From a virus, in the IMG/VR virus record IMGVR_UViG_3300000576_000022, positions 372 through 24,415 of that record: DNA of 24,044 nucleotides. One strand, written 5' to 3'. Of the stretch, positions 1 through 8,049 are shown one piece after another. A program made the translations under genes and the position numbers. Numbering within the stretch: the first letter of the stretch is position 1; each line of letters starts with the position of its first letter. Below the pieces are notes generated by a model that worked only from the letters and a program-made list of their open reading frames with translations, had not been told where the DNA came from and made no database searches.

Positions 1-333
1 CCTATCACCTTCATTACTAATAGTAGTATAAAAAGGCATTAAACTATCACCTTCATTTAAATTTTCAGCCTTAACATACGAACCATCCCTTAACATATAT
101 TCATGGTCAGGGGTAGTATCCAAATGTGTACCATTATCTAAAGTAGTTCTAACTAAATTAGAATTTTTTCTAGTCAAATCACACCACACTATTTTACCAG
201 GTTTAATTTCATTGGTTTCATGTTGTATAGAGTAAGTCCAAACTTCTTCACCAGATTTTATTTTTTCAGATAATTCTTTAATAGTGATATATGTACCATC
301 TAATAATGGAATTATGGAATTATCACGTATTGG
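1..333 (-). other. Intein N-terminal (Hint) segment inside the portal gene, incomplete
   Basis: Residues 152-262 of the portal frame have the order of an intein splicing domain. The block A-like start is PIRDNSIIPLLDGTYITI, then a helix (KELSEKIKSGEE) and strands (VWTYSI, KPGKIVWCDLTRKN). The block B-like segment is LDTTPDHEYMLRDGSYVKAE followed by NLNEGDSLMPF. TTPDH matches the conserved TxxH of block B, and the pattern dG-x-x-x-x-A-x-x-L-x-x-GD is typical. The likely first residue is Pro152 rather than Cys or Ser, which is non-canonical. Any homing endonuclease, the C-terminal blocks F and G and the +1 extein residue are outside the window. Splicing activity is inferred. Confidence 0.85.
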
Positions 334-786
334 AGTATTCCTAACCCACATAGGTAAATTAGTTGAAATATCTAATCTATTACTAAATAAATCATCTAAT
401 ACTGATTTAATTCTAGAAGATTCTGAATATACGGATAATATATCACCCTCTTCATTAGCAGTAGTACTTTCTTCAGCAAATATATCTAAAGCCGCTGAAA
501 TTTCAGGAGTGAACTCCATACTTTCAAAATCATAAAAAGCTGCTAACCTAGTTGGTTCATAATAAATTGCTTGAGTATATAAATTAGATTCTATTTTTTG
601 CCAATTACCTTCTAAATATTTGGATTGTTGTTTCTCTAACTTTTTCTTTTCAAACTCAGCTTTACTAGTGGTTTTTAATATTTCTTTTTTGTCAAATTTA
701 TATGTATTGGGTTTTTGTCCCATAGTACCATATTCTCCAAAAGCAATATTAAGTCTCTGCCAAGCAGTGTATTTCTTATTTCCCAT
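1..786 (-). CDS. Portal protein (gp20-like), 5' part, interrupted by an intein; runs off the left edge
   Basis: The minus-strand frame opens with ATG at 786 (MGNKKYTAWQRLNIAFGEYG) and stays open to base 1, giving 262 residues. Residues 1-151 look like the N-terminal part of a T4-type portal: an acidic region with FTPEISAALDIFAEESTT, then LDISTNLPMWVRNT. The portal forms the dodecameric DNA channel at the capsid vertex and is the docking site for the terminase encoded just upstream. From about residue 152 the sequence changes to an intein Hint domain (see separate entry), so the rest of the portal must lie beyond the left edge. A promoter-like motif lies 9 nt upstream of the ATG. The portal call rests on local sequence character and position directly after TerL. 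The intein call is stronger than the host-gene call. Confidence 0.72.
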   Translation of the reverse strand, partial: MGNKKYTAWQRLNIAFGEYGTMGQKPNTYKFDKKEILKTTSKAEFEKKKLEKQQSKYLEGNWQKIESNLYTQAIYYEPTRLAAFYDFESMEFTPEISAALDIFAEESTTANEEGDILSVYSESSRIKSVLDDLFSNRLDISTNLPMWVRNTPIRDNSIIPLLDGTYITIKELSEKIKSGEEVWTYSIQHETNEIKPGKIVWCDLTRKNSNLVRTTLDNGTHLDTTPDHEYMLRDGSYVKAENLNEGDSLMPFYTTISNEGDR

Positions 787-839: not shown

Positions 840-2615
840 CTACATTTTACCACCAAACAACCAAGAATATTTTTGATAATCTTCTTTATTAATTTGTTGC
901 CTACCATGAATATCTTGTTTATCCGAAGGAAACGAAGGCATTAAAGGGTCAAAATAGGTTTTCTTAATTTCTTTATCACTTTCATGTAATACCCAATTAT
1001 CTAATAATGTTTTAGCTTCTTTATTCGCTTTTTCTAAATCAGCAAACGAATATTCTGATATATAAATAGGCATAGACAACGACATAATTAAATCATCGTG
1101 TTGTCCTTTCATGTGGTCAGGTCTACCATTAATATATACAAAAGTGTCTAATTCAGAAGCTAATCTAGAAGACCTAATTTTAAAATCGTTTCTAACTGCT
1201 TCTTCAAAAGCAGCTATTATTTGTACTCTTTTATGGTTAAAATTTAACCCCGCTTTTTTATTTTTAACTCTACTATATGCTGACCATTTATCCGAATTAG
1301 ATTGTCCTTCATAATATAGATTTTTATATCTAAGTTCTTCCAATTTAGTCGTTGTTGCTATACCCATACCCCCTGTAACATCAACAACTATCATAGCGTT
1401 ATATAAGGTGGCCCATTTATAACCTATATCCGCAGCAACATCAGGAGGGACTTTACCGTAATACTCCAATACCTGTTCTCGTTCATCGAAATCAATCATC
1501 ACCATACCCGTAAAATCATCACTCTCACCAGAACTAACATCAATACCTAAAATATATTTATGACCCTCCACAGGCTCTTTCCATTGCCATAAAGCACCAC
1601 CCATAAATTTATTTGTAGGTTCTATTACATCATTTTCTTTTATACTTTCAATCTTTTCGGCAGGTATTACGTTATCACCTGAACCTAAGAATGCACAATT
1701 AAGCTCCTGATTAATTTTTCTTTCATCAAACTTAAGTTTTTTAGCCATTTTTTCAAACCAAGAAGAATATGGTCTATAACCTTTTTTTATATTTTCACCT
1801 ATCTCCTTAATATTTCTTTCCCTAGGGTTTATATGACCATAATCTATGGATATTTCAGAATCTTCATACTTTTCCCTATTTCTCATGTAATGTATGATAT
1901 TATCCACTTTAACTAATCTTAAATCTTTAGCATATCTAGGGTCTCTATACCAAAACATTTCAGTTATTCTAAAATCATTTAAACCTTTTTGAGCTTGAGA
2001 ATATATACCATAATAAATTGGGTCGTATCCGTTTGGTGTTGATATAACTATAACTTTACCACCAGTTGATAAAGATGCCATACAAGCTGCCCAGAAGTCC
2101 GAATCAGCTTCAATATATGCTGCTTCATCAAATACTAATATTGTCGGCGTATAACCTCTTAAAGCATCTTTTGAAGTTGCCACAGCCTTAACTTCACATC
2201 CATTACTTAGTCTATAATGTGAAGCGGCATTTTTTTCTTTAACAAAATCCACTCCGAACCAACTTGGCCACTGATTTAAGAAACTCCTAACCTTGTTAGC
2301 CATTTCAGTGGCAGTATCTTTTTTATTCGCAATAATTAATATTTTTTCAGGTGAACTTTTTTTTGCTGTCACGATTTTTTTTGAGCACCATGCTGAAGTA
2401 ACTGTAGACACACCAGCTTGACGATATTTAAGGGCTATATTCTCTTCATAATCATCATAATCATTTATAAGATTTATTTGGTCTGGAAATAAATCTAAAG
2501 GTACATGTTTTTTTTGTGTATTGTCAAATGTGGACAAATATGTTTTAAGGGCATAAGGAGTGTTTTTTAAACATTTCTTATACTCCATAAGAATCTTTTT
2601 TTTCTTATCATTCAT
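840..2615 (-). CDS. Terminase large subunit (gp17-like)
   Basis: ATP-driven DNA packaging motor with a headful nuclease, acting at the portal vertex of the prohead. The length (591 aa) is close to T4 gp17 (610 aa), so no intein is present here. The N-terminal ATPase has a variant Walker A at residues 63-71 (KYRQAGVST, with the lysine at the front of the loop instead of in GK[ST]). Walker B is at 159-164 (ILVFDE) with catalytic Glu164, followed by a coupling-like segment, VIVISTPNG, at 188-196. The C-terminal RNase H-like nuclease has acidic residues at Asp359 (YILGIDVSSGE), Asp412 (MIVVDVTGG) and Asp507/508 (GQHDDLIMSL). It lies directly upstream of the portal, with a 53-nt gap and its own promoter-like motif 8 nt before the ATG. 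No small terminase was recognised in the window. Confidence 0.95.
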   Translation of the reverse strand: MNDKKKKILMEYKKCLKNTPYALKTYLSTFDNTQKKHVPLDLFPDQINLINDYDDYEENIALKYRQAGVSTVTSAWCSKKIVTAKKSSPEKILIIANKKDTATEMANKVRSFLNQWPSWFGVDFVKEKNAASHYRLSNGCEVKAVATSKDALRGYTPTILVFDEAAYIEADSDFWAACMASLSTGGKVIVISTPNGYDPIYYGIYSQAQKGLNDFRITEMFWYRDPRYAKDLRLVKVDNIIHYMRNREKYEDSEISIDYGHINPRERNIKEIGENIKKGYRPYSSWFEKMAKKLKFDERKINQELNCAFLGSGDNVIPAEKIESIKENDVIEPTNKFMGGALWQWKEPVEGHKYILGIDVSSGESDDFTGMVMIDFDEREQVLEYYGKVPPDVAADIGYKWATLYNAMIVVDVTGGMGIATTTKLEELRYKNLYYEGQSNSDKWSAYSRVKNKKAGLNFNHKRVQIIAAFEEAVRNDFKIRSSRLASELDTFVYINGRPDHMKGQHDDLIMSLSMPIYISEYSFADLEKANKEAKTLLDNWVLHESDKEIKKTYFDPLMPSFPSDKQDIHGRQQINKEDYQKYSWLFGGKM

Positions 2616-4237: not shown

Positions 4238-4625
4238 AAGTTAATAATATATCTCTTTCATATAATTTATCTTTCACAGACTCGATACCCTCACCATAAG
4301 AGAATACTAACCTAGGAAATCTTCTTTTAAAATTTTCCATATATGAGTCATGACTCTCCCAACCCACAGCGTGTATTCCGTCTATACCATCATAATAAGA
4401 TGCAAAGTCACAATCTTTAAGTAAATCTAATTCGATTTTAGTGTTTTTTAAAACTCCCACACCATCAATATATTTTAAAAGTGGTGGTTCAGGATATCCG
4501 AAAGCTGGCATGGAATCCCAACCCTCACCTTTTATTTCATTATTTAATTCTTTACTAAAAATGAATTCATAGCTAAACTCACCTTTATAGTTAACACCTA
4601 AATCGTTTATAAAGATAAGTTTCAT
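4206..4625 (-). CDS. Hypothetical phage protein (139 aa)
   Basis: A soluble protein with mixed alpha/beta character, starting MKLIFINDLGVNYKGEFSYE. It has a Gly/Pro-rich stretch (GWDSMPAFGYPEPPLLKYID, about residues 35-54) and a Trp/His-containing centre (GIHAVGWESHDSY). I recognise no domain. Its ATG shares one base with the TAA of the upstream 399-aa gene (TAATG), a typical stop-start coupling, and its 3' end overlaps the next gene by 32 nt. It is therefore the second cistron of the four-gene operon and probably made in fixed ratio with its neighbours. Confidence 0.78.
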   Translation of the reverse strand: MKLIFINDLGVNYKGEFSYEFIFSKELNNEIKGEGWDSMPAFGYPEPPLLKYIDGVGVLKNTKIELDLLKDCDFASYYDGIDGIHAVGWESHDSYMENFKRRFPRLVFSYGEGIESVKDKLYERDILLTYEEVQQNIRD

Positions 4626-5824
4626 TATATTATTCTACCTTTTTCTGTAATTTTAACTTTTTTACCTTCTTCATTTACGAATAAGAAGTTACCTAAATTT
4701 GTTTTACCTAAGAAATCTACTTGGGTATTTTCTTTCAAATATTTTACAGCCGAATCAAATTGTTTTTGATTAGATTTAAATTTATCAAATTCTCTAACTA
4801 GTGTAACTATTTTAGATTTATTTTTAATAAAATCTACTTTTTCGTTTATACTAGATTTTTCACATTCATTACATTCTTTTTCATCTAAATCTAAAGAAAC
4901 GTCATAATCATCTTCATCCAATATTTCGGACAATTCATCATCTATATCTAAATCTTCTGAATCGTCAATATCTAAGTCAGAATCGTCAATATCTAAGTCA
5001 GAATCGTCAATATCTAAGTCAGAATCGTCAACTAAATCCTCACCTTTATCTGAAGGAGACCCAGCACTATCCATTTCACTATTTAACCTAGATAACACAT
5101 CTTCTCTATCTTCTTCATTTAATTTAGATAAATCTATTGCAGATACTATAGAATTTATAACATATTTAATATCACCTGAAGTTAATTCTGAGTTTCTCCT
5201 AAAATCTCTTATAAGTTGCCCTAAAGTTCCTGTGACTCTTTGAATTTCTTTTAAAGATACTTCACCTTCAGTCTCTTCCTCACTATTATCTAATTCATCT
5301 TCTGAATCATCCATATCCAAATCTTCTGAATCATCCATATCCAAATCTTCTGAATCATCCATATCCAAATCTTCTGAATCATCAATATCTAAGTCAGAAT
5401 CGTCGATATCCTCTTCATCTTCTTCAGGCTCTGGTGCAGGTGTTTTAAGTTTAAATTCTTGTTCACCAAACAAATTTATTTCTTCCTCAAAGTTATTTAA
5501 TCTACTTTCTTCTTTAATAACCAAATTTATTCTATTTAAAGCCTTAGAAAAAGTTTTATAATACTTTCTATTTTCTATAATATCTAAATGTTCGAAATTT
5601 TCAGAAGATTCGTCTTTCTCCATTATAGCATATCCATTTTTTTCATGTACAATACCATAAGATTTACCGTTAGGCAATTTTCTAGTATATTCAATGTTTG
5701 ATTCTACACAATTTTCATTAGCATCTTCTTTTATATTTCTGCGAAAATCTGCAATCTCAAGAATCCTTTTAATTTTTTCGTCTCCTTCCAACTTTTCGCT
5801 ACCTAAAGGTTTTATTCCACTCAT
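4625..5824 (-). CDS. Highly acidic Asp/Ser-repeat protein, first gene of the assembly operon
   Basis: A 399-residue protein with three folded-looking parts separated by two acidic low-complexity linkers. The N-terminal part (about 1-125) includes YGIVHEKNGYAIMEKDE. The first linker repeats DSEDLDMD. A helical segment follows (LKEIQRVTGTLGQLIRDFRR and VINSIVSAIDLSKLNEEDRE). The second linker repeats DSDLDID, and the C-terminal part includes VDFIKNKSKIVTLVREFDKF and ends in a small beta-like unit (GNFLFVNEEGKKVKITEKG). The function is unknown. Strongly acidic proteins near terminase and portal in T4-like phages include prohead core components, so a scaffold-like role is one possibility (inference). 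A promoter-like motif and an insulating terminator precede it. Confidence 0.8.
   Translation of the reverse strand: MSGIKPLGSEKLEGDEKIKRILEIADFRRNIKEDANENCVESNIEYTRKLPNGKSYGIVHEKNGYAIMEKDESSENFEHLDIIENRKYYKTFSKALNRINLVIKEESRLNNFEEEINLFGEQEFKLKTPAPEPEEDEEDIDDSDLDIDDSEDLDMDDSEDLDMDDSEDLDMDDSEDELDNSEEETEGEVSLKEIQRVTGTLGQLIRDFRRNSELTSGDIKYVINSIVSAIDLSKLNEEDREDVLSRLNSEMDSAGSPSDKGEDLVDDSDLDIDDSDLDIDDSDLDIDDSEDLDIDDELSEILDEDDYDVSLDLDEKECNECEKSSINEKVDFIKNKSKIVTLVREFDKFKSNQKQFDSAVKYLKENTQVDFLGKTNLGNFLFVNEEGKKVKITEKGRII
4959..5031 (-). repeat. 21-bp in-frame tandem repeat, three perfect copies plus a partial
   Basis: Units at 4959-4979, 4980-5000 and 5001-5021 are identical (GAATCGTCAATATCTAAGTC plus A on the plus strand), with the first bases of a fourth at 5022. 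They encode the acidic heptad DSDLDID. Perfect nucleotide identity points to recent slippage-type expansion. Confidence 0.9.
5301..5396 (-). repeat. 24-bp in-frame tandem repeat, three perfect copies plus a diverged fourth
   Basis: Copies at 5301-5324, 5325-5348 and 5349-5372 are identical and encode the octad DSEDLDMD. The copy at 5373-5396 has drifted towards the 21-bp family found in the same gene. Both families probably share an origin. Confidence 0.9.
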
Positions 5825-6081: not shown

Positions 6082-8049
6082 ATGGCAACAATTAATTCGA
6101 CAGGTAAAAGCAATGAAAAGTCTAAAACGTTAGAGAATTTCTCAACTAATTTGAGTAAGTTAGCTATAGAAGGTAAATTAGAAAAATTGATAGGTAGGGA
6201 AGAAGAAATAGATAGATTGTCTCAGATATTAAGCAGGAAAAAGAAATCTAACCCAGTAGTGGTGGGAGAACCAGGATGTGGTAAAACCGCCTTAATTGAA
6301 GGGTTAGCAATAAATATTGCTGAAGGCAATTGTTCCACCAATTTAATAGGTAAGGAAATTTATAATTTAGATGTTAACTCAATAATTGCTGGTACTAAAT
6401 TCAGAGGTCAGTTTGAAGAAAGAATGAAAATTATTATGCAAGAGGTTAAAGAACATAGTAATATTATATTATTCATTGATGAGGTACATACAATTGTGGG
6501 TGCAGGTAATAGTTCAGAAGGTTTGGATGTGTCAAATATTATAAAACCTTTTTTATCTAGAGGAGAAATACAAATAATCGGTGCTACGACACCTAAAGAA
6601 TATAAAAGTTCATTAGAAAAAGACGGTGCATTAAATAGAAGATTCCAAAAAGTTAATTTAAATGGTACGAATAGAGAGGAAACTTTAAACATATTAAATA
6701 AAATTAAAACTAACTATGAAGAATTTCATAAAGTAAAATATAGTGATAAGTTATTAACTTTATGTGTAGATTTATCTAACAAGTATATAAAAAATAAAGT
6801 ACAACCTGATAAATCTATTGATATATTAGATGAGATAGGTGCTAAAACTAATCTAAATTACCAAGTTCCTGAAGAACTAACTGAACTTAAAAATAAAGCT
6901 AAAGAAATAAAAAAACAAAAAGATTTAGTTGTTAAAAAGCAAGAATTTGAAAGAGCTGCTGAGATAAGAGAAAAAGAAAAAGAGATTATTGAGGAGATAA
7001 GTAGAGTTGAACATGACATTTCGGTAAATAGAAAATATGTTGAAATAAATGAAAATTTATTGTACGACACTATCAGTAGCATGACTAAAATACCTAAAGA
7101 TGTTTTAGATAAAGACGATAATAGTAATATTATTAATATTGAAAAAACATTAAAAAATAAAGTTATCGGTCAAGATGATGCAATTGACAAAATATCTAAG
7201 AGTATTAAAAGAAATTACACTGGTGTTAGAAAAAATGCTAAAACTGTAGGTAATTTTATGTTTGTTGGTTCTACAGGTGTTGGTAAAACTTATTTAGCTA
7301 AACAAATAGCAAGACATGTTTACGGTTCTGAGGATAGTTTAATTAGAATGGATATGAGCGAATTTCAAGAAAAACATACAGCATCTAGATTAGTAGGTGC
7401 ACCTCCTGGTTATGTCGGTTATGGTGAAGGAGGTGAACTGACCGAAAAAGTTAGAAATAACCCACATTCTGTAATATTATTAGATGAGATAGAAAAAGCC
7501 AATAAGGACATATATTCGTTACTATTACAAATAATGGATGATGGACATATTACCGACGGAAATGGCGTTAAAATAGACTTCTCTAATACATTAATAATTA
7601 TGACTTCAAATGTAGGGGTTAAAAAGATGAATTCTATTAAGGGTAGCTTAGGTTTTTCAACAAAAGAAACTTCTTTAGAAAAGCTCAAGAACTCTACTTT
7701 AGATAAAGAGATTAAGGAACATTTTGCACCAGAATTTCTAAATAGAATCGACAATATAGTTAAATTTAATAGATTAAATAAAAAAATGTTGAAAAACATT
7801 ACTAAATTAGAAATTTCAGAATTTATTGAACACATGCACAAAAATAATTATAATATAAACATTACTACCAAAGTAATTGATAAAATAGTTTCAAATGTAA
7901 ATGATTTAGATAATGGTGCTAGACCTATAAAAAGAGAAATTCAAGATTTAGTAGAGAATTTCACTAGCGACATGATATTATTAGGTAAAATAAAACATGG
8001 TAAAGAATATACTATTGGTATTGAAAAAGGTGAATTATCATTGAAATAA
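6082..8049 (+). CDS. ClpA/ClpC-type AAA+ unfoldase lacking the ClpN domain
   Basis: A 655-aa ATP-dependent protein unfoldase with two AAA+ modules. D1 has Walker A GEPGCGKT (62-69) and Walker B LFIDE (Asp133, Glu134), followed by HTIVGAG. A short helical insertion (about 275-310, FERAAEIREKEKEI, UVR-like) takes the place of the long ClpB middle domain. D2 has Walker A GSTGVGKT (396-403), Walker B ILLDEIEKA (Asp468, Glu469) and FLNRID near the arginine-finger/sensor region. Before the latter is LGF (523-525) in the position of the ClpP-docking loop ([ILV]-G-[FL]) of ClpA, ClpC and ClpX, which ClpB lacks. The family's usual N-domain of about 140 residues is absent; the protein starts close to D1. 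A host-type promoter precedes it, suggesting early expression. No phage ClpP is visible, so it may recruit host ClpP (inference). Confidence 0.95.
   Translation: MATINSTGKSNEKSKTLENFSTNLSKLAIEGKLEKLIGREEEIDRLSQILSRKKKSNPVVVGEPGCGKTALIEGLAINIAEGNCSTNLIGKEIYNLDVNSIIAGTKFRGQFEERMKIIMQEVKEHSNIILFIDEVHTIVGAGNSSEGLDVSNIIKPFLSRGEIQIIGATTPKEYKSSLEKDGALNRRFQKVNLNGTNREETLNILNKIKTNYEEFHKVKYSDKLLTLCVDLSNKYIKNKVQPDKSIDILDEIGAKTNLNYQVPEELTELKNKAKEIKKQKDLVVKKQEFERAAEIREKEKEIIEEISRVEHDISVNRKYVEINENLLYDTISSMTKIPKDVLDKDDNSNIINIEKTLKNKVIGQDDAIDKISKSIKRNYTGVRKNAKTVGNFMFVGSTGVGKTYLAKQIARHVYGSEDSLIRMDMSEFQEKHTASRLVGAPPGYVGYGEGGELTEKVRNNPHSVILLDEIEKANKDIYSLLLQIMDDGHITDGNGVKIDFSNTLIIMTSNVGVKKMNSIKGSLGFSTKETSLEKLKNSTLDKEIKEHFAPEFLNRIDNIVKFNRLNKKMLKNITKLEISEFIEHMHKNNYNINITTKVIDKIVSNVNDLDNGARPIKREIQDLVENFTSDMILLGKIKHGKEYTIGIEKGELSLK

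Follow-up and report, generated by a model that had tools for sequence, protein, structure and literature searches.

Inteins are grouped into classes according to the attacking residue, which is residue 1 in class 1, the +1 residue in class 2, and a cysteine at position F:4 followed by the +1 residue in class 3 (PMC5222942, PMC4031507). Class 3 has been presented as a monophyletic splicing type, and the described class 2 members are all KlbA orthologs (PMC4031507). Direct conversion of class 1 inteins into class 3 inteins has been called improbable (PMC7664689). Mutation of Cys F:4 abolishes all splicing in class 3 inteins (PMC5222942), and an Ala1-to-Gly exchange does so in the class 3 intein AceL NrdHF, indicating that the conformation of residue 1 matters (PMC7891396). 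The class 3 inteins compared here include the prototype from mycobacteriophage Bethlehem DnaB, DnaBi1 from M. smegmatis (6bs8), and the TerL inteins of phages Makemake and ECD7. Phage class 3 inteins often carry a LAGLIDADG endonuclease.

The DNA analysed in this study, referred to as the window, is a stretch of 24,044 nucleotides corresponding to bases 372-24415 of the viral record IMGVR_UViG_3300000576_000022 (24,415 b; L002), the first 371 bases of which lie outside it. Its left end carries an interrupted portal gene with the following features, in which site-b denotes the insertion point before the portal segment CKYG:
Window 786..1, minus strand: open frame with the start of the portal protein and of the intein (translation).
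Window 334..786, minus strand: N-extein, comprising residues 1-151 of a T4-like (gp20-type) portal protein (Portal_T4 match, contiguous portal relatives).
Window 334..336, minus strand: Thr151, the non-nucleophilic extein residue at -1 (-1 variation among relatives).
Window 331..333, minus strand: codon of Pro1, the first intein residue (junction set by intein-free relatives).
Window 1..333, minus strand: intein residues 1-111 of 216 (frame translation, Intein_splicing).
L002:57-371, outside the window: intein residues 112-216 (record bases left of the window).
Window 181..186, minus strand: Trp50-Cys51, which does not vary among the 29 dereplicated Pro1 inteins of site-b.
Window 103..114, minus strand: block B Thr74-Pro-Asp-His77, with Thr at B:7 and His at B:10.
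Window 840..2615, minus strand: terminase large subunit (gp17 type), the upstream neighbour of the portal gene (Pfam Terminase_6N, PHROG 2).

The insert is a protein-splicing intein within a phage portal gene, with splicing predicted from its residues. It comprises 216 aa, Pro152-Asn367 of the portal frame (L002 704..57, leftwards from window position 333), and matches Pfam Intein_splicing with 63 bits against a cut-off of 35.8. Its Hint fold with splicing blocks separates, without a frame change, two extein halves that are joined end to end in relatives, and a C-terminal Asn (Asn216) is followed by a nucleophilic +1 residue (Cys+1). The portal assignment of the spliced fragment is consistent with a Portal_T4 score of 22.0 bits (E 7.9e-5), just under the Pfam gathering score of 22.9. 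The junctions read RNT/PIRDNS...GVFLSN/CKYGDN. In the intein-free portals of 80 viral contigs, the spliced sequence is contiguous at 66-75% identity; among the 64 loci whose junction fitted the search pattern, 63 have LPMW[VTI]RNTCK[YF]G and the remaining one has RNACKYG. Because these loci run directly through RNTCK[YF]G, the intein extends from P152 to N367, flanked by Thr (-1) and Cys (+1). A sequencing error at Pro1 was ruled out by the recurrence of this residue across the family described below.

The initial annotation, made from the window alone, had proposed a portal intein with a TTPDH block B, beginning at Pro152, at a point where intein-free portals continue with a Cys-Lys-Tyr-Gly-type segment that would supply a +1 cysteine. 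All of these proposals agree with the present results: the Hint domain, its full C-terminal part and the resumed portal were found, the codon at window 333..331 encodes Pro, the intein-free loci carry the proposed continuation, and Cys directly follows Asn367. Leftward extension encountered neither outcome named as contrary evidence, namely a missing intein C-terminus and resumed portal or a frame closing just beyond the window. The 371 additional bases encode the finish of the intein (...VYCMEV...HNF...GVFLSN), after which the portal resumes as CKYGDNFVYLKL, and translation through the record gives the resumed portal after Asn367 as CKYGDNFVYLKLDQDKGV, with the frame open across the window edge to the record end. 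A single N base at the window join (L002:371) affects one codon; an assembly gap at this base was rejected, as alignment with the nearest relative reveals no missing residue. The C-terminal blocks expected by the annotation are present, including block F His194, but its terminal His-Asn is not, the intein ending in Ser215-Asn216 (Ser at G:6). The remaining diagnostic positions are Tyr79 at B:12, Cys181 at F:4 and Leu214 at G:5.

Elsewhere in the window, a protein with many DLDIDDSE/DLDMDDSE acidic repeats (4625-5824, minus strand) adjoins the structural genes and had no family match in a PHROGs search. A phage-borne ClpA/ClpB-like AAA+ ATPase of 655 aa is encoded at 6082-8049 (plus strand). 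Rfam and tRNA scans across the window found nothing.

The annotation had also anticipated a LAGLIDADG or HNH endonuclease, and here the outcome was mixed: relatives encode what we read, from a sequence pattern, as an HNH-type enzyme, and the copy in the window has lost it. The nearest relative (L247; 426 aa, 73% identity over splicing columns) carries THH...NFNKKNNHPINL, a stretch deleted in the window's intein, in which the alignment leaves only the GYEKVYNPNSNRYQYTHRMV part; the Pfam HNH_3 match in a relative is weak. As judged from this alignment, the window's intein is a mini-intein whose homing endonuclease has been deleted, and it has probably lost its mobility.

A first search with the intein matched 64 viral contigs, nearly all with inteins starting PIR, PIK or PVR at the same site. 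Further searches enlarged this family from uncultured phages to 111 distinct inteins that begin with Pro and whose block F can be read. Its members occupy three portal-gene sites: site-b, a second preceding segments of the type [S/T/C]-acidic (for example SVDEDYF), and a third preceding TGDIDD. Within the 29 dereplicated site-b members, Pro1, Thr B:7, His B:10, Cys F:4, the terminal Asn and Cys+1 are invariant, and Trp50-Cys51-Asp52-Leu53-Thr54 is likewise unvarying. Trp50-Cys51 also occurs in the same-site Cys1 orthologs examined and is missing from most other Cys1 relatives shown. Across all sites, 77 of 109 Pro1 inteins have Cys at +1, 27 have Ser and 5 have Thr, and none of the 109 has a penultimate His. 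Trp occupies B:12 in 7/112, most having Phe or Tyr there, and Thr occupies G:5 in 1/109. The -1 residue is L (42), T (36), M (27) or V (2), with one each of Y, E, I and F.

Position F:4 is Cys in 111/111 distinct Pro1 inteins and in all 47 of the dereplicated set. In 54 non-Pro1 relatives from the same run it is T (35), C (14), N (4) or D (1), and in dereplicated Cys1/Ser1 relatives C (15), D (14), T (5) or N (4). Cys F:4 is therefore found beside Cys1, yet Pro1 never occurs without Cys F:4, an association that may have only one to three evolutionary events behind it. A Fisher p value for this association takes no account of relatedness and does not serve as a probability here. Pro1 is encoded at site-b by CCT (27), CCA (25), CCC (7) and CCG (5), and in all Pro1 inteins by CCA (44), CCT (39), CCG (19) and CCC (10). 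Since all four codons are used, it is the residue rather than the DNA that has been kept, which points to selection for proline.

Among 50,697 phage records, no family member was found over most of the intein length, the partial matches at 25-39% being other inteins. L065, an intein at portal site-d, recovered only itself when used whole as a query. In bacterial genomes, the only clear member came from a Candidatus Wolfebacteria MAG contig (L343:1-7085), which is probably a phage contig and has one 1,879-aa portal frame containing four Hint domains (Ser1, Cys1, Pro1, Pro1). Other portal genes contain three inteins, two Cys1 and one Pro1 (L053:1-6411), or two Pro1 inteins (L310:1-7821). The portal genes of these phages are very intein-rich.

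Site-b is also occupied by seven distinct Cys1 inteins, five after dereplication (L164, L187, L217 with near-copies, L269 and L270), which share Cys F:4, Cys+1 and the long insert between blocks F and G with the Pro1 inteins. At the second of the three sites, three Cys1 inteins have both Cys F:4 and His-Asn (L300, L303, L304). Class 3 was represented in the tree by 6bs8, 6rix and six inteins from phages, eight in all. In this tree, the portal family falls among class 1 portal inteins, with support of 100 for the grouping of Pro1 inteins with the nearest Cys1 inteins, and class 3 inteins form a long separate branch far from it, although deep intein trees are weak. Common descent with inteins bearing Trp B:12, Cys F:4 and Thr G:5 (WCT) is strongly, if not finally, contradicted by this placement. 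When the two trait columns were omitted, the clade of Pro1 and same-site Cys1 inteins had support of 98/88 and adjoined Cys1 inteins carried by the same genes; the minimum number of Pro/Cys changes at position 1 on this tree is three. Placing all Pro1 inteins in one clade costs 16 log units, yet this arrangement is not rejected (AU p = 0.2). The portal Pro1 family thus apparently arose separately from class 3. Four further inteins (L333, L335, L336 and L337) combine Cys1 with Cys F:4 in genes whose flanks, by their CxxC motifs, resemble radical-SAM proteins; as class 1 inteins, they offer a setting in which an equivalent Cys1-to-Pro1 switch could take place.

AlphaFold produced confident models for a 167-aa Pro1 mini-intein (L057; pLDDT 88.4, pTM 0.84) and a 159-aa Cys1 ortholog (L217; pLDDT 90.2, pTM 0.85). 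The L057 model has a Hint fold; among solved structures it comes closest to Ssp DnaB, at E 5.5e-9, and to NrdJ-1, with Z 21.0 and an rmsd of 1.7 (147 residues). The class 3 structure 6bs8 scores Z 16.6, below the class 1 inteins DnaB and NrdJ-1, a ranking to be read with the observation that the Hint backbone does not tell intein classes apart (PMC7664689). In alignments with 6bs8 and 6rix, Pro1 of L057 (model residue 11) pairs with their first residue, and its Asn (model residue 177) with their terminal Asn.

The non-canonical first splicing step implied by the initial annotation gains strength from the retention of Pro1 in 111 distinct inteins, always together with Cys F:4. We consider it probable, on sequence evidence, that splicing would be initiated by Cys181 (F:4) through a class-3-like route, in a lineage separate from class 3 and derived from class 1 inteins that already carried Cys F:4 beside Cys1. 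In this scheme, His77 would strain the Thr151-Pro1 bond, which Cys181 would attack directly to form a block F branched thioester; Cys+1, or Ser/Thr in sister inteins, would accept the N-extein; cyclisation of Asn216 would release the intein; and an S-N shift would ligate ...RNT-CKYGD.... Pro1 probably does more than fill the position: because it is conserved, and in line with the Ala1-to-Gly result for AceL NrdHF (PMC7891396), we infer that its rigid tertiary Xaa-Pro amide aids distortion of the scissile bond. The class 3 route fits because Cys F:4 is invariant and the +1 residue is loose. Two published results count against the proposal, namely that three class 3 inteins ceased to splice once Trp B:12 was lost (PMC5222942) and that a class 1 intein engineered with WCT gave no useful splicing (PMC7664689). 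AceL NrdHF is functional with Met in place of Trp B:12 (PMC7891396).

A class 1 route is excluded because residue 1 is Pro rather than Cys, Ser or Thr, unless Thr151 were the true first residue of an intein one residue longer. Thr can in principle serve as class 1 residue 1, but this assignment is refuted and has next to no chance of being correct: Thr precedes CK[Y/F]G in 63/64 matched intein-free portals, with Ala in one, and the residue at -1 of Pro1 inteins is mostly Leu, Met, Val, Tyr, Glu, Ile or Phe. We regard as unlikely a class 2 route of the KlbA type, in which Cys+1 would attack the Thr-Pro bond directly with Cys F:4 merely assisting. The window's intein does combine a non-nucleophilic residue 1 with the Ser G:6 and Cys+1 seen in class 2, KlbA inteins included (PMC4031507), and its Cys+1 would permit such a route; however, the Asp F:4 required in class 2 (PMC4031507) is replaced by Cys in all 111 Pro1 inteins, and the described class 2 members are exclusively KlbA orthologs. 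Direct attack by the +1 residue is further disfavoured because 32/109 Pro1 sisters have Ser or Thr there, which are poor nucleophiles for an amide.

It is improbable, too, that the family represents canonical class 3 inteins that drifted away from WCT. A non-nucleophilic residue 1 with Cys F:4, as present here, was the criterion for 1,701 class 3 inteins (PMC7891396), Pro1 also occurs in one class 3 TerL intein, and single departures at Trp or Thr are known; yet both Trp B:12 and Thr G:5 are missing in nearly the whole family, same-site orthologs retain Cys1, and the tree groups the family with class 1 portal inteins (support 100), far from class 3. The best structure matches, class 1 DnaB and NrdJ-1 above class 3, lean the same way, although fold alone is non-discriminating. 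Loss of splicing, leaving a degenerate or cleavage-only Hint domain, would accord with the deleted HNH stretch and the missing penultimate His, but is very improbable, given that all splicing residues are retained, the reading frame continues uninterrupted into the portal, and 109 Pro1 inteins in an essential portal gene keep the terminal Asn with C/S/T at +1; moreover, the penultimate His is missing family-wide and so does not reflect decay of one copy. Returning to initiation by Cys181, the window's intein is filed as class-3-like in its working but not as a class 3 member, since WCT is replaced by Tyr79, Cys181 and Leu214. More broadly, we tentatively suggest, as quite possible though short of likely, that these inteins constitute a second, independently evolved class starting from the block F cysteine, recruited from two-cysteine class 1 inteins and with Pro1 active in bond distortion.

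Natural orthologs at one site with either Cys1 or Pro1 beside Cys F:4, together with Pro1 paralogs bearing Cys, Ser or Thr at +1, make this evolutionary step testable with natural proteins. For tool building, the 167-residue Pro1 mini-intein should start splicing without an N-terminal nucleophile, and the 159-residue Cys1 ortholog offers a control.

Compared with described systems, the window's intein shares with class 3 a non-nucleophilic residue 1, Cys F:4, His B:10 and the terminal Asn. It differs in lacking Trp B:12, Thr G:5 and the penultimate His, in its separate tree branch, in its long F-G insert (NGPNGEKDRHNF...DEEGNYSRDGVFLSN), and in the HNH-type endonuclease of its relatives. The split class 3 intein AceL NrdHF likewise departs from WCT (MCT), has no penultimate His and uses Cys F:4, but is split, begins with Ala1 and retains Thr G:5. 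The class 2 KlbA intein of Methanococcus jannaschii also has a non-nucleophilic residue 1, Ser G:6 and Cys+1; it begins with Ala1 and needs Asp F:4, whereas the window's intein has Pro1 and Cys F:4, and its sisters include Ser/Thr+1. The site-b Cys1 inteins resemble it in insertion point, block F with Cys F:4, long insert, endonuclease type and Cys+1, but have Cys1 instead of Pro1, so that a class 1 route is possible for them in principle. The portal Pro1 family goes unmentioned in the class 2, class 3 and phage intein literature as far as searched, with founding class 3 work covered incompletely. Pro1 alone is already known from the class 3 TerL intein of phage Makemake (PLALNTEV...ILTHN/T); what is new is a large non-WCT family combining Pro1 with Cys F:4, with Cys1 orthologs at the same site.
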